Source: Anaeromonas frigoriresistens (GTDB lineage: Bacteria; Bacillota; Clostridia; Tissierellales; SIT17). From it: DNA of 64,000 bases. The stretch covers positions 1 through 64,000 of the forward strand of contig NZ_WSFT01000013.1 of NCBI RefSeq assembly GCF_016820655.1. The letters are read 5' to 3'. The notes under the pieces are model-generated. The model was not told the DNA's origin. It made no database searches and was given only the letters and a program-made list of their open reading frames with translations. The position numbers were made by a program, and so were the translations under genes. Every line of letters begins with the position of its first letter. Positions within the stretch are counted from its first letter, which is position 1. Shown here piece by piece: positions 31,804 to 48,412 of the stretch.

Positions 31804-31900
31804 TGGCGGGAATATGTGGGAATCGAACCCACCCAGGACGCTCCTAACGCCCCGAACTGGTTTTGAAGACCAGAAGGCACACCAGCACCCATCTACTCCC
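31804..31900 (-). tRNA. selC: tRNA-Sec (anticodon TCA)
   Basis: A 97-nt gene with encoded CCA (31804-31806). The acceptor begins GGGAGTAG and closes with ATATTCCC plus G73. The anticodon arm CTGGTCTTCAAAACCAG gives anticodon TCA, which reads UGA. The extra arm is long (about 22 nt, TTCGGGGCG...CGTCCTG), as in Sec tRNAs, and the T arm GTGGGTTCGATTCCCAC is canonical. These features separate it from suppressor or Ser tRNAs. It has its own consensus promoter and terminator and lies about 7 kb from selB in the same orientation. It supplies SelA and SelB. Confidence 0.95.
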
Positions 31901-38447: not shown

Positions 38448-40355
38448 TTAATATAATTTCCTCTTATCTTCAATTCTTTTAGTAAATTTATTTCTATCAA
38501 AGTCTTCTAATAGTACCATAGCAAATTTTCTGCTAGTATCTAAAAGATCTCTAAACTCTGCCAAGGTAATAAATTCATTTTTTTGGAGATAACTGATTAT
38601 CATCCTTTTTGCCTCATCATAGGCTTTTTTATGAAATATTAAGTCTTCATCTAATAATATTATTTCTCCTCTTTGGATCATAGAATCAAGTATTTTTATA
38701 ATATCATCCTTTTTATAATCTAATTTTTGTACTAGATCACTTATTTTTGGAGGAGTAAATTTGTTTGATAAAATCCCATCCTCTATAGCATTTTTTATAT
38801 CCATCTCTTTATTATTAAAACTAACCTCAAAATTATATAGTGATATATAGAGATTGTTCTGTTTTAAGATGTCTGCTTCTATTAACTTATCAATAAATAG
38901 CTCTCCTAATTTAGGTTTTATATTAATAAAGTATTTACTTCGCAATTCTTCTCTTAAAATACCAAGTTTTAGAGAATTCTTATTATGATATTCCTTCAAA
39001 AACTCTTCTATTTTACCTTTCATAGATACAAAATAATCTTCATGAATATAATACTTTATACCAGAGGTTTCAAAAATTAATATTCTTTTCTTTTCCAATA
39101 ATTTTTCAGTTACATCTATTATTTCATTTTCATTAGTTACTAATTCAGTGGCTAATTCTTTTGTAGAAGGGAATTTTCTGCTTTTGTCTTTGATAGTTTC
39201 CTCTATTATTCTTTCATTATCTCCAGTTTCTTTTATTTTCAGGTCATCTATTACATTTTCTTTGAACCTCTTTTTCTTAGTAGGGCTTCCATCTAAAATA
39301 GTTCCACCACCTATTGTAGTCATAGGTGAATAAAACCTAACTATAAAACGGTCTCCTATCTTGGCTGAAGTTTCTTCTTCTAATCTTAATTGAACATAAC
39401 CACTTTCTCCAGGAGTAAGATACTCTTTGTCTAAAAGGACTGCTCTACACAGTATTTCTTGAGTTCCTAAATAAAGTCTCAATCTTGTCCTATTTTCTAT
39501 TATCCATGGAGAATTTTTTAGTAAATTTAATTTAACATCTAACATCATGGTATTTACCATAGATTCTGGTAGAGCAACAATATCTCCTTTATCTAAATCA
39601 TTTTTTTTAACACCAGCTAGATTTATAGCGACCCTTTGTCCTGCTAAAGCTTCCTCAGAGTCTTCCCCATGTACCTGTACTGATCTCACTCTACTTTTTA
39701 TTCTCTTTGGAAATATCTCTACCTCATCTCCTACTTTTAAGCTTCCTTGTAATAGAGTTCCAGTTACTATTGTACCGAATCCTGTCAAAGTAAAAACTCT
39801 ATCAATAGGTAGTCGCGGAACGTTATCACTATCTCTATCTTCTAATTTCTCTGTTAGTTTATCCACTTCTGCTGCTAAAGTTTCTATTCCTGTTTTTTTG
39901 GTAGATGATACTTCTATTATTGGACTATTCTCAAGAAATGTATTCTCAATACTTTCCTTGATATCTTCTTTAACAAGCTCTCTCCATTCATCATCAACTA
40001 AATCACACTTAGTTAGGGCTACAATTCCTTTTTTTAAATTTAATAGATTAAGTATATTTAGGTGTTCTACAGTTTGAGGCATGATACCTTCATCTGCTGC
40101 AACTACTAATATCACTACATCCATACCACTAACTCCAGCTAACATGTTTTTAATGAATTTTTCATGTCCCGGTACATCTATAATACCTGCTCTTCTACCA
40201 CTGGGTAAGTCAAAATATGTAAATCCAAGTTCTATAGATATCCCTCTATTCTTTTCTTCTTTCAATCTATCTGTTTCTCTTCCAGTAAGAGCTTTAATTA
40301 ATGTTGTTTTTCCATGATCTATATGTCCTGCTGTTCCTATAATAATATTCTTCAT
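38448..40355 (-). CDS. selB: Selenocysteine-specific elongation factor SelB
   Basis: About 635 residues. It delivers Sec-tRNA to the ribosome at UGA codons next to a SECIS. The GTPase domain has G1 GHIDHGKT (10-17), switch region GISIELGFTYF, G3 DVPGHEKFI and G4 TKCD. Domains II and III follow, then four winged-helix repeats at the C-terminus (about 380-635) that bind the SECIS hairpin. I use the ATG at 40355, which follows TAGGAGTG by 6 nt and lies two bases after the selA stop (TAGTATG), rather than the longer start at 40400. It is the last gene of selD-selA-selB. Confidence 0.96.
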   Translation of the reverse strand: MKNIIIGTAGHIDHGKTTLIKALTGRETDRLKEEKNRGISIELGFTYFDLPSGRRAGIIDVPGHEKFIKNMLAGVSGMDVVILVVAADEGIMPQTVEHLNILNLLNLKKGIVALTKCDLVDDEWRELVKEDIKESIENTFLENSPIIEVSSTKKTGIETLAAEVDKLTEKLEDRDSDNVPRLPIDRVFTLTGFGTIVTGTLLQGSLKVGDEVEIFPKRIKSRVRSVQVHGEDSEEALAGQRVAINLAGVKKNDLDKGDIVALPESMVNTMMLDVKLNLLKNSPWIIENRTRLRLYLGTQEILCRAVLLDKEYLTPGESGYVQLRLEEETSAKIGDRFIVRFYSPMTTIGGGTILDGSPTKKKRFKENVIDDLKIKETGDNERIIEETIKDKSRKFPSTKELATELVTNENEIIDVTEKLLEKKRILIFETSGIKYYIHEDYFVSMKGKIEEFLKEYHNKNSLKLGILREELRSKYFINIKPKLGELFIDKLIEADILKQNNLYISLYNFEVSFNNKEMDIKNAIEDGILSNKFTPPKISDLVQKLDYKKDDIIKILDSMIQRGEIILLDEDLIFHKKAYDEAKRMIISYLQKNEFITLAEFRDLLDTSRKFAMVLLEDFDRNKFTKRIEDKRKLY

Positions 40356-40356
40356 A

Positions 40357-41775
40357 CTAAACACTCCTACAGTTATTAATTGCCCATATAATTCCTTCAA
40401 CTATTATATCAAAATCTTTTTCTTCTACTGTTCTTAAATCTATAAGAAGATTATTATTATTAATTCTAGTAATTATTGGTGTTCTAAAAGTACGTAAACT
40501 TTCTTCTAGTAAATTAACACTGAAATCTTCACTTTTAATACTCAATACCTTTGTAGGAATTTGCTCTAAAGGCAGTGAGCCCCCTCCTACTTGAGAAAAA
40601 TCATCAACTATTTCAACTGACAATTTATCAACATTCTTAATAATTAAATTATATAGTTTTTCTGCTTTTATACCTATTTCCTCTAATTGTATTGTAAGCA
40701 TTCTTAAAGTAGGAATATTCCTAATGGCTTTATCCTCATCTAAGTATTCCCTTAGAATTAGTTCTAAAGCAGCTATTGTCATTTTATCTACTCTTATAGC
40801 TCTAGTTAATTGATTTCTTTTCATTTTATCTATTAGATCCTTCTTTCCTACAATAATTCCAGCCTGGGGACCACCTAATAGCTTATCACCACTAAAGCTT
40901 ACTATATCTACTCCTCTATTTATTGACTCTTGAACTGTAGGCTCATAACTTAATCCGTATTTACTTAAATCTATTAAAACTCCACTACCAATGTCTTCAA
41001 CTACAGGAATACCCCTTTGATTTCCAAGTTTAACTAGTTCTTCTATTGAAACAGATTCTGTAAATCCTACTATTCTATAATTACTTGTATGTACTTTTAA
41101 TAAGACTGATGTATCTTCTCCTATTGCTTTTTCATAATCCCATAGATGAGTTTTATTTGTGGTACCTACATCAACTAATTTTCCTCCGCTTTGTTCCATT
41201 ACTTCAGGAACTCTAAAAGATCCACCAATTTCAACTAATTCTCCTCTAGATACAATTACTTCTTTATTTTTAGCTAGAGTACTTAATATAAGCATAACAG
41301 CAGAAGCATTATTATTTACTACTAATGCTGCTTCTGCTCCAGTTATTCTACATATAATATCTTCTATATGACTATATCTAGACCCTCTTCTACCTTCTTC
41401 TAGATCATATTCTAAATTAGAATACTCTGATGCTATTTCTACAACTCTCTCCATTATCTCTCGAGAAATTAAAGATCTTCCTAAGTTAGTATGGATTATT
41501 GTACCAGTTCCATTAATAACCTTTCTAAGCTTCGGTTGAATTTTCATTTTGGCTTTTTCTATAATTTCATAATCTATCCTTTGTATTCTTTCTTCAATAG
41601 ATGCTTTTGTTATAGTTGAAGATTGAATATTTTTTCTAATATCTTCTATCACTTCTCTTATAGATTCTAATACTATATCTCGGGGGATATAATTCAAAGC
41701 TTCTTCTATTTTTTCTTTTTGAAGAATTTCATCAACTTTAGGTAGACTTCTAAATAGTATGTTTTTATTTTCCAT
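40357..41775 (-). CDS. selA: L-seryl-tRNA(Sec) selenium transferase SelA
   Basis: 472 residues, full length. It converts Ser-tRNA(Sec) to Sec-tRNA(Sec) with selenophosphate. The N-terminal domain (1-65) binds the tRNA. The PLP lysine is Lys298 in FSGDKLLGGPQAG. NGTGTIIHTNLGRSL (about 88-102) and LEYDLEEGRRGSR (121-133) are hallmark SelA stretches. Start supported by AAGGGTGAAG. It follows selD by 12 bp and abuts selB, so the three are cotranscribed. Confidence 0.97.
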   Translation of the reverse strand: MENKNILFRSLPKVDEILQKEKIEEALNYIPRDIVLESIREVIEDIRKNIQSSTITKASIEERIQRIDYEIIEKAKMKIQPKLRKVINGTGTIIHTNLGRSLISREIMERVVEIASEYSNLEYDLEEGRRGSRYSHIEDIICRITGAEAALVVNNNASAVMLILSTLAKNKEVIVSRGELVEIGGSFRVPEVMEQSGGKLVDVGTTNKTHLWDYEKAIGEDTSVLLKVHTSNYRIVGFTESVSIEELVKLGNQRGIPVVEDIGSGVLIDLSKYGLSYEPTVQESINRGVDIVSFSGDKLLGGPQAGIIVGKKDLIDKMKRNQLTRAIRVDKMTIAALELILREYLDEDKAIRNIPTLRMLTIQLEEIGIKAEKLYNLIIKNVDKLSVEIVDDFSQVGGGSLPLEQIPTKVLSIKSEDFSVNLLEESLRTFRTPIITRINNNNLLIDLRTVEEKDFDIIVEGIIWAINNCRSV

Positions 41776-41787
41776 ATATCTTCACCC

Positions 41788-42825
41788 TTATTCTACAATT
41801 ATATAGTGTTCACCTTTTTCTATTACTCTACCAATAATACTGTATTCTGTATCTAACACTTTTAACTCTTCCATTAACTGATCTGCTTTATTCTTATCTA
41901 CAGATATTAATAAGCCGCCGGAGGTTTGAGGATCAAACATAATATCTTTTAAAGATTCTTCTATATCCTCACTTATTTTTACATTATCTCCTATAAAAGA
42001 TTTATTAGAGTATGCACCAGCAGGTATTATACCCATTTTAGCTAAATCATGGGCTTCTTTTATAACCGGTATTTTATTACTATGAAGCTCAATGGTTACA
42101 TTGCTTCCTTTAGCCATTTCTAAACCATGACCTAATAGTCCAAATCCTGTAACATCAGTACAACTATTTACACCTACATTAATCATTGCATCTTTAGCTT
42201 TTTTATTTAAGGTAGTCATTATCTTAACTGCTTCATTATATGCATCCTTTGAAGCTATATCAGCTTTAATCGCAGTATTAACAATACCAGTACCTATAGG
42301 TTTAGTTAATACTAGAATATCACCAATTTTCGCATTACTATTAGTAATGACATTATCTGGATGTACAAATCCTGTAACAGTTAGACCATATTTAGGTTCA
42401 TCATCTTCAACTGTATGTCCTCCAACAATTAATGCTCCAGCTTCTAATACTTTATCATTCCCACCTTTTAATATTTCAGTCATTACATCGGGACTCAAAC
42501 AAGTAGGAAAACCAATGATATTCATTGCTAGTTTAGGTTCTCCCCCCATTGCATATATGTCACTTATTGAATTAGTAGCAGCTATTTGACCAAATGTATA
42601 GGGATCATCTACAACTGGAGTAAAAAAATCAACAGTCTGAATTATAGCGGTATCTTCATTAATTTTATATACAGCACCATCATCTGAGGTATCTATTCCA
42701 ACCAGTAAGTTTTCATCAGTATTTCTTGGTATATGACACAGAACCTGTGCCAAGGTCTCAGGACCTATTTTGGCAGCTCAGCCAGAGGCAGTAGTCATTT
42801 GTGTAAGTCTAAATTTATTATCCAT
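41788..42825 (-). CDS. selD: Selenophosphate synthetase SelD, selenoprotein (Sec16)
   Basis: 345 residues when the in-frame TGA at 42778-42780 is read as selenocysteine. The N-terminus is MDNKFRLTQMTTASG-U-AAKIGP; Sec16 and Lys19 correspond to the catalytic Cys/Sec17 and Lys20 of other SelD proteins. The ATP-binding part has DTSDDGAVY and the glycine-rich GGHTVEDDEP loop. It makes selenophosphate from selenide and ATP, the donor for SelA. Automatic calling would start at 42753 and lose the active site. A SECIS-like hairpin lies right after the TGA. The ribosome site is weak (AAAGGTAGTG). It follows comEA by 18 bp. Confidence 0.96.
42748..42775 (-). promoter_or_regulatory. SECIS-like hairpin of selD
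   Basis: Two bases past the UGA, TGCCA pairs with TGGCA (lower stem), a four-base AAAT bulge follows on the 5' side, then AGGTC pairs with GACCT around the loop CTGA. Size and distance fit bacterial SECIS elements that recruit SelB. Confidence 0.75.
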
Positions 42826-45667: not shown

Positions 45668-48133
45668 TTAATTTGCTACAATATTTACAAGTTTTTTAGG
45701 TATTACTATAACCTTTCTCACTTGTTTGCCTTCAGTAAACTCTTTCACTTTCTGATTTTCTATAGATATTTTTTCTAATTCTTCTTTAGAGATACCAGAA
45801 GAAACCATGATTTTATCTCTGAGTTTACCATTAACTTGAATAACTACTTCCACCTCATCTTTTACTAAAGCTTCTTTATCATATCTTGGCCATTTAACGG
45901 TATGAATACTTTCTTTATGACCTATCATATTCCACAATTCTTCAGTAAGGTAAGGTGCAAAAGGAGCTAATAATACTGTTATTGTTTCAACAGAATCTGC
46001 TAAAAGAGCCTTTTTAGTATCTGTGCTTAGATCTTCCTTATACTTGTTCGTATCATTTACAAGCTCCATGATACTACTTATAGCAGTATTAAAATTAAAT
46101 CTTTCATCTATATCTTCAGTTACCTTTTTAATGGTATTGTGAATAGAATATTTAATTTCTTTATCTTTTTTGTCTAACTTTTCTATATTTTTATTAGCAT
46201 AGTTTTTATATACATCTCTTGATTCATCTACTAGTCGATATACTCTATTTAGGAATCTAAAACAGCCTTCTACCCCTTGATCATTCCACTCCAAGTCTCT
46301 TTCAGGAGGAGCCGCAAATAACACAAATAATCTAGCTGTATCTGCTCCGTAATTATTAATTATCTCTTCTGGACTAACAACATTTCCTTTTGATTTGGAC
46401 ATTTTAGCTCCATCTTTTAATACCATTCCTTGAGTTAAAAGATTTTCAAAGGGTTCATCAACTGGTGATATATCCATATCATACAATACCTTTGTAAAGA
46501 ATCTAGCATAAAGTAAATGTAGAATTGCATGTTCTACTCCACCAATATATTGATCAACCTTCATCCAATATTTCGCTTTGGATTTATCAAAAACTTTTTT
46601 ACTATTATTTGGATCAGTATATCTCAAGAAATACCAAGAAGAGTCAACAAATGTATCCATTGTATCAGTTTCTCTTCTAGCTTTCTTACCACATTTAGGA
46701 CAATTTGTATGCATAAATTCTTTACTAGTTAATAAAGGTGACTCTCCTTTACCAGTAAATTCTACATCTGTAGGTAATAATACAGGAAGACTTTCTTCTG
46801 GAATAGGTACAGTTCCACAATCGTCACAGTATACTATAGGAATTGGAGTACCCCAGTATCTTTGTCTTGATATTAGCCAATCTCTTAATCTATAGTTAAC
46901 AGTTTTATTTCCTAACTTCTCTGATTCTATATAGTTTGTGATTTTTGATTTTGCTTCTTCACTGCTTAAACCATTAAATTTATCGGAATTAATCATTATT
47001 CCTTCATTAGTATAAGCTTCAGCTAAATCCTCTATCTCTTTACCTTCTTCTGCTATAACTTGAGTTATTCTAATATTATATTTCTTTGCAAATTCAAAAT
47101 CTCGTTGATCATGAGCTGGAACTGCCATTATTGCACCTGTTCCATAGTCAATTAATACATAATTAGCAATATATATTGGTATTTCTTTATTAGTCACAGG
47201 ATTTATAGCATATCTACCAGTAAATATACCTTCCTTCTCTACATCTGTTGCTGTTCTATCTATATCAGATATATGTTCCATCTTCTTTTTGAATTCCATT
47301 ACATCTTTTTCATATTCAGTTCCTTTTACTAAGTCATTTACATAAGTATGTTCTGGTGCAAGTACCATATAGTTCACACCATAAATGGTATCAGGACGAG
47401 TAGTAAAAACATTCAGATTGGAAGGGTAATCCTTAATTTTGAATTCAATTTCTGCCCCTTCACTTTTACCTATCCAATTTGTTTGCATAGACTTTACTTT
47501 TTCAGGCCAGCCTTCTAGCTTATCAATATCATCAAGTAACCTTTGAGCATAATCTGTAATCTTGAAATACCATTGATCTAATTCTTTTTTGCCTACTTCT
47601 GAATCACATCTTTCACATTGTCCATTTACTACTTGCTCATTGGCTAGAACTGTCTCACAGGATGGACACCAGTTAACTGCATAGTTCTTTTTATAAGCCA
47701 ATCCTTTGTTATACATTTGTATAAAGAACCATTGGGTCCATTTATAGTAGTCTGGTTGGCATGTGGTAACTTCCCTATTCCAATCATAACTTAACCCAAT
47801 ACCTTTTAATTGCTCTCTCATATCATCAATATTCTCTAATGTCCATTTATTTGGATGAATACCATGTTTTATAGCTGCATTCTCAGCCGGTAATCCAAAA
47901 GAGTCCCATCCCATAGGATGAAGTACATTATATCCTTGCATCCTTCTTACCCTAGCTACTACATCACCTATAGAATAGTTTCTTACATGACCCATATGGA
48001 TTCTTCCTGATGGATATGGGAACATTTCTAATTGATAGTATTTTTTCTTGTCATTCTCAAAGGCTTCAAAGGAATTAGAACTATCCCATTTTTGTTGCCA
48101 TTTTTTTTCAATTTTACTAAAATTATAAGACAT
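45668..48133 (-). CDS. leuS: Leucyl-tRNA synthetase
   Basis: 821 residues, full length for a bacterial LeuRS. HIGH-type motif HMGH in [12 protein letters not shown] (about 43-54) and KMSKS in [10 protein letters not shown] (about 579-588) define the class Ia catalytic site. A zinc-binding [21 protein letters not shown] segment and the editing CP1 domain ([12 protein letters not shown]) are present. The anticodon-binding and C-terminal domains end the protein. It charges tRNA-Leu. Expression is controlled by the upstream T-box. A YheO-like regulator follows. Confidence 0.98.
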
Positions 48134-48183: not shown

Positions 48184-48412
48184 AATAAAAACTCCCCATC
48201 CTTATCTATATAGATAGGGACGAGAAGTAACCCGCGGTACCACCCTAATTGGCAATAATGCCCACTCATCGAGTCCTATAACGGGGACCAATCTTTTAGC
48301 TAAAGGAAGTTCAGTATCCAAACTTTATCAGTTTTCACCAACCACTGACTCTCTATAAAAATTTAAAATACTTACTACTCTTTATTTTATATTTTTAGTT
48401 GTAATAATTAAT
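48184..48412 (-). promoter_or_regulatory. T-box leader of leuS (leucine)
   Basis: The T-box core AGGGTGGTACCGCG (minus strand, 48233-48246) is followed by the antiterminator partner and a terminator (about 48186-48222) ending in T5. Upstream, Stem I contains the GAACTTCC segment (48305-48312), whose CTT (48307-48309) is the likely specifier for leucine. Uncharged tRNA-Leu would stabilise the antiterminator and allow leuS transcription. The region between 48134 and 48429 holds only this leader. Confidence 0.92.

Follow-up and report, generated by a model that had tools for sequence, protein, structure and literature searches.

The selD locus and its gene neighborhood

The window analyzed here, a stretch of 64,000 nucleotides from Anaeromonas frigoriresistens, contains on its reverse strand selD, followed by selA and selB, and the tRNA-Sec gene elsewhere within the window. 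The selD gene (selenide, water dikinase; 41788..42825, (-)) starts with an ATG at 42825-42823, ends at 41788 and comprises 345 codons, including a UGA-encoded selenocysteine (Sec) at position 16 and Lys19. With the TGA read as Sec, this frame matches the selD equivalog TIGR00476 with 406.9 bits (E 5.1e-122), which is well above the curated cut-off of 125. The selA gene (40357..41775, (-); TIGR00474, E 1.9e-192) is overlapped by selB (38448..40400, (-); TIGR00475, E 1.3e-108), for which the coordinates are those of the listed open reading frame. The tRNA-Sec gene (selC; 31804..31900, (-)) was identified by ARAGORN and by RF01852 (72.5 bits). SelA, SelB, and tRNA-Sec, the partners expected for a Sec-containing SelD, are thus all encoded in this genome. 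In this genome of 3.2 Mb (53 contigs, 99% completeness), only one strong SelD match was found, and a second SelD was rejected, as the only further candidate is a remote match with 29% identity. The nearest named relative, Anaeromonas gelatinilytica, is 85% identical.

Catalysis by SelD and the feedback of selenophosphate on SelD synthesis are taken from established biochemistry. Ribosomes would start at 42825 and reach the UGA at codon 16 (42778..42780, (-)), where delivery of Sec would generate the catalytic Sec16 beside Lys19, and the product selenophosphate would feed SelA. Since SelD makes selenophosphate for SelA, its synthesis would depend on its own product. An initial annotation of this DNA had proposed a frame that begins with the ATG at 42825 and has a TGA (42780-42778) as its codon 16, and both codons are indeed present. 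It had also anticipated that automatic callers lose the active site and start at 42753; the mechanical list of open reading frames does so, placing the start at a TTG at 42753, as a consequence of which residues 1-24 are dropped.

Conservation of the UGA codon

SelD was present in 135 of 150 genomes (own genome included), and a single in-frame TGA was detected in 118 of 137 SelD matches, a tally of table rows counted by hand, in which 6 of the 137 matches were not fetched. These 118 include matches from each of the three further genomes of this genus (G001-G003). Of the 19 matches outside this group, three are without the N-terminus, and those inspected have Cys. In a sample of the phylum, SelD was present in 111 of 159 genomes, with one TGA in 118 of 124 matches (again a row count made by hand, with 3 of the 124 not fetched). 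The UGA aligns with TGC or TGT in 20 of the 102 matches of a motif search with identical context and in 31 distinct Cys leaders, and it is hence located where other SelD proteins have Cys. Several genomes of the phylum sample possess two or three SelD genes, most of them with an in-frame TGA; examples are G152, G160, G195, G228, G245, G259, G279, and G295.

A sequencing error or pseudogene at codon 16 was rejected in view of the in-frame TGA in 118 of the 137 matches. The related possibility that the UGA truly terminates translation or arose as a pseudogene mutation, with the SelD product starting at the TTG at 42753, coincides with what open reading frame finding yields, but it is considered exceedingly improbable: the UGA is conserved, the codons past it preserve both the protein sequence and a covarying hairpin (see below), the short form would be without Sec16 and Lys19, and the Sec machinery is present. 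Judged by the TIGR00476 score and the conservation of the UGA, selD is predicted to be a selenoprotein gene with Sec at catalytic position 16, in agreement with the initial annotation.

Sec-containing SelD is a long-known selenoprotein family and in itself ordinary. It is well documented in passages of PMC1794560 and PMC4561486, the latter of which states that Sec is present in 19% of the prokaryotic SelD genes of its reference set. The SelD of the window shares with the bacterial Sec-SelD family the UGA at the catalytic position, the family score, and the proximity of Sec machinery genes, and as a protein it is no different from known Sec-SelD. What appears to set the lineage of the window apart is a predicted SECIS element farther from the UGA, with a second hairpin before it.

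The hairpin closest to the UGA

In the following, columns are numbered with the T of the TGA as 1, so that the UGA occupies columns 1-3. The hairpin noticed first, H1 (AGGUC-CUGA-GACCU; 42753..42766, (-)), pairs columns 15-19 with 24-28 around a CUGA loop. The initial annotation had described it as SECIS-like and had it begin two bases after the UGA. The hairpin is present at 42766-42753, but its apical part starts 11 nt past the UGA, with the loop at 16 nt; a start two bases past the UGA would apply only to a potential lower stem, formed by columns 6-11 and 28-33.

The bacterial SECIS model given in the legend to Fig 2 of PMC13188914 (bSECISearch consensus) comprises a loop of 3-9 nt, a stem of 4-16 bp, a G as first or second loop base, a spacing of 16-37 nt between UGA and loop, and an energy of -7.5 kcal/mol or lower. 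H1 agrees with this model in its 4-nt loop, its 5-bp stem, and its spacing of 16 nt. However, the G of its CUGA loop is in third position, and H1 alone folds at -5.4 kcal/mol. Among 200 shuffles of the 16-nt stretch, 5 fold at least as well, and H1 as drawn is unusual only to a modest degree. The initial annotation had suggested a search for compensating changes in other SelD leaders, and none emerged: in its register of H1, 55.2% of the cells are paired with a covariation of 0.133, below the shuffled mean of 0.148, and the lower stem did not show any either. H1 as the SECIS element was rejected on account of its loop sequence, its folding energy, and the absence of covariation in this register.

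A second hairpin with strong covariation

Immediately downstream of H1, with zero unpaired bases in between, lies a second hairpin, H2 (UGGCACAG-GUU-CUGUGUCA; 42734..42752, (-)), over half of which falls outside the coordinates given in the initial annotation. It pairs columns 29-36 with 40-47, and its apical triloop GUU (columns 37-39; 42742..42744, (-)) corresponds to codon Val28. In contrast to H1, this hairpin agrees with the SECIS model in every respect: it has a loop of 3 nt with G in first position followed by U, a stem of 8 bp, a spacing of 33 nt between UGA and loop, and an energy of -8.7 kcal/mol for the 19 nt alone. None of 200 shuffles was as stable. The bSECISearch model is a single stem-loop, whereas the selD gene of the window appears to have two adjacent hairpins under selection. 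The SECIS element of Escherichia coli fdhF and H2 are alike in that both carry a small GU-tipped loop on a hairpin in the coding region, but in the window it is the second hairpin that bears the SelB-type loop, with its stem base 25 nt from the UGA. No Rfam family was found at the gathering threshold at either hairpin.

The selD leaders align without gaps. Identical 60-nt leaders were counted once, genomes present in two collections were not doubled, and 11 of the 336 records yielded no leader (8 SelD loci, 3 not). In 25 diverse leaders, chosen for having at least 6 of the 8 H2 pairs, 96.5% of the H2 cells are paired, and the covariation is 0.510 as compared to 0.196 after shuffling. This value was reached by none of 500 shuffles, and controls in which the helix was slid gave at most 0.153. 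All of the pair types AU, UA, GC, CG, GU, and UG occur at pair 33-43 among these 25 leaders. When 156 leaders were picked from 250 without using that pair, it was formed in 152 of them, as AU in 83, GC in 41, UA in 20, CG in 5, GU in 2, and UG in 1. When 141 leaders were scanned for helices, with synonymous recodings as the null, H2 came out far ahead of all other helices.

H2 is also frequent. Of the 139 distinct Sec leaders in the first set, 108 had all eight pairs, against a null of 1.9 (maximum 7), whereas none of 31 Cys leaders did. The full set gave 155 H2 calls among 250 distinct Sec leaders, as compared to a mean of 12.1 (maximum 22) in 200 runs of synonymous recoding, and no call among 32 Cys leaders; among representatives at 80% identity, it was called in 93 of 173 (null 7.6, maximum 16). 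The loop reads GUN in all 155 leaders called H2. H2 would be a strong covarying annotation marker for Sec-SelD in Bacillota.

An alternative to two separate hairpins, implied by the initial annotation, is one composite fold, in which the lower stem is located under H1 and H2 forms only after the ribosome has passed. Short stretches of the window adopt this fold, and five of the six lower-stem pairs (7-32 to 11-28) take 14th place among the 5-bp helices of that scan, occurring in 0.38 of the leaders when 0.18 are expected. However, the lower stem uses the 5' arm of H2 and is hence incompatible with it, and across leaders 70.0% of its cells are paired versus 69.7% after shuffling, with a covariation of 0.096 versus 0.089. 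With pairing and covariation equal to those of shuffles, the lower stem was rejected, and the composite fold is regarded as very unlikely.

Proximal and distal leader types

The 250 Sec leaders comprise 155 of the H2 type, referred to as distal, and 95 without H2, referred to as proximal. The H1 region (columns 11-31) is more stable than synonymous recodings of the same leaders in both types, with median percentiles of 0.98 in distal leaders (n=155), 0.99 in distal leaders without the loop G (n=86), and 0.99 in proximal leaders (n=95), whereas Cys leaders are hardly above their recodings (0.62, n=32); these nulls recode each leader independently, and shared ancestry thus inflates the H1 signal. 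The register of H1 differs among leaders, and in 60 of the 155 distal leaders H1 is weak, with an energy above -3 kcal/mol. In the strong cases, the commonest start is 11 nt past the UGA (37 of 95 distal and 39 of 86 proximal leaders). Because this region is more stable than recodings in Sec but not in Cys leaders, it is probably a second conserved part of the selD SECIS element and more than a relic. The H2 structure, the conserved UGA, and the excess stability of the H1 region are each supported by comparison among leaders.

The two types differ in the H1 loop. Among leaders with H1 at -3 kcal/mol or better, a comparison that excludes the 69 of 250 leaders with a weak H1, 77 of 86 proximal but 27 of 95 distal leaders have a G as first or second loop base. 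The weak distal H1 hairpins partly show the opposite trend, with a G in these positions in 42 of 60 cases, 30 of them as GUCC. A quick search on representatives at 80% identity (191 of 282) gave an unrooted protein tree, from which the leader region had been removed and in which 61 of 188 inner branches are starred. On this tree, the distal/proximal label requires 20 changes, and starred branches provide 11 independent pairs whose members differ in H2; in these pairs, the H1 loop G differs in the opposite direction in 6.7 and in the same direction in 0.1 on average (median p 0.0156). In most cases, the H1 loop G is the third base of the Pro22 codon. This codon is CCG in 77 of 95 proximal, 15 of 153 distal, and 14 of 24 Cys leaders, as compared to a CCG share of 26%, 14%, and 41%, respectively, in the remainder of these genes.

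A tentative reading of these data, to which we give somewhat less than even chances, is that selD has two SECIS positions 16 nt apart, with the G-loop borne by either the proximal or the distal hairpin. The proximal hairpin would be kept as a structural spacer in the distal type, its loop G often being removed synonymously at a single proline codon, and the function would have moved between the hairpins more than once via leaders carrying both.

The same data bear on the possibility that in the window H1 itself is the SelB-binding SECIS element, as it would be in relatives with H1 alone, and that H2 has another role. H1 is located at the classical distance of 16 nt between UGA and loop, its region is more stable than recodings, and the 95 leaders without H2 mostly possess a strong H1 with a G as first or second loop base (77 of 86 strong cases). 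However, the H1 of the window has its G in third position and folds at -5.4 kcal/mol, in conflict with two published criteria, its covariation is absent in the register initially drawn, and the loop G becomes much less frequent where H2 exists. This explanation is therefore considered unlikely.

A proposed two-hairpin SECIS element

We consider it likely that Sec is inserted into SelD by means of a SECIS element composed of two hairpins, in which H2 binds SelB and H1 takes up spacer. SelB loaded with Sec-tRNA-Sec would bind H2 at its GUU triloop, as we infer from the agreement of this hairpin with the SECIS model and its conservation. H1 would probably act as a spacer-absorbing hairpin: when folded it would take up 14 nt and shorten the unpaired stretch between the UGA and H2 from 25 to approximately 11 nt. 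Across leaders with a strong distal H1, the number of unpaired nucleotides between the UGA and H2 with H1 folded is most often 11 (32 of 95 cases, range 6-14); in 28 of the 95, the folded H1 window overlaps an H2 arm. According to passages of the review PMC11431864, the SECIS must lie 11 nt from the UGA, and this distance, noted in the comparison with fdhF, equals the one at which H1 most often starts. The spacer proposal is based on this coincidence of the H1 start, the remaining spacing, and the published requirement. Competing folds that mix the arms of both hairpins are seen in the window itself, where stretches of 42 nt and 48 nt fold otherwise and the centroid of a 51-nt stretch is unlike its minimum-energy structure.

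Two adjacent or tandem SECIS hairpins in selD were not found in the open full-text literature, to which the search was confined; a prior description may be contained in the supplement of PMC4561486, which includes an RNAz figure of SelD SECIS elements. If true, a two-hairpin SECIS element with the recognized loop on the second hairpin and a lineage-dependent position would bear on the relation between the 16-37 nt spacing of the model and the stated fixed distance.

Residue 30 as a probable by-product of RNA pairing

Pair 33-43 of H2 joins the third base of codon 26 (42748) to the first base of codon 30 (42738-42736). The residue at position 30 follows the type of pair in nearly all of the 93 representatives, being Cys with A-U, Arg with G-C, Ser with U-A, and Gly with C-G; since pairing is part of the definition of this class, only the choice of pair is free. 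As residue 30 follows its pairing partner in codon 26, Cys30 of the window should not be read as catalytic, and the protein probably makes no functional use of it. The variation of SelD residue 30 between Cys, Arg, Ser, and Gly would be explained by base pairing with a synonymous position of codon 26.

Other features of the window and the genome

The genes for GrdA and GrdB of the same genome (G000 contig C36, loci L213 and L214) also carry UGA codons. In GrdB, the UGA is followed by a triloop hairpin (CGUUGC-GGU-GCAACG) with a spacing of 18 nt, which resembles H2, and in GrdA by a weak fold only (-4.0 kcal/mol). The GrdB UGA is located directly after the end of the Pfam GRDB match, and a gene caller would therefore truncate this protein. 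Formate dehydrogenase alpha (TIGR01591) had no match in the genome, and a crude two-sided TGA screen of the window, with its top rows inspected by eye, gave no convincing further selenoprotein.

Just downstream of the tRNA-Sec gene, the window encodes a DsrE2-like sulfur carrier protein (PF13686; 30742-31251, (-)), for which a part in the delivery of selenium is purely speculative. A T-box leader (RF00230, 110.5 bits; 48213-48397, (-)) is located upstream of the leucyl-tRNA synthetase gene (45668-48133).
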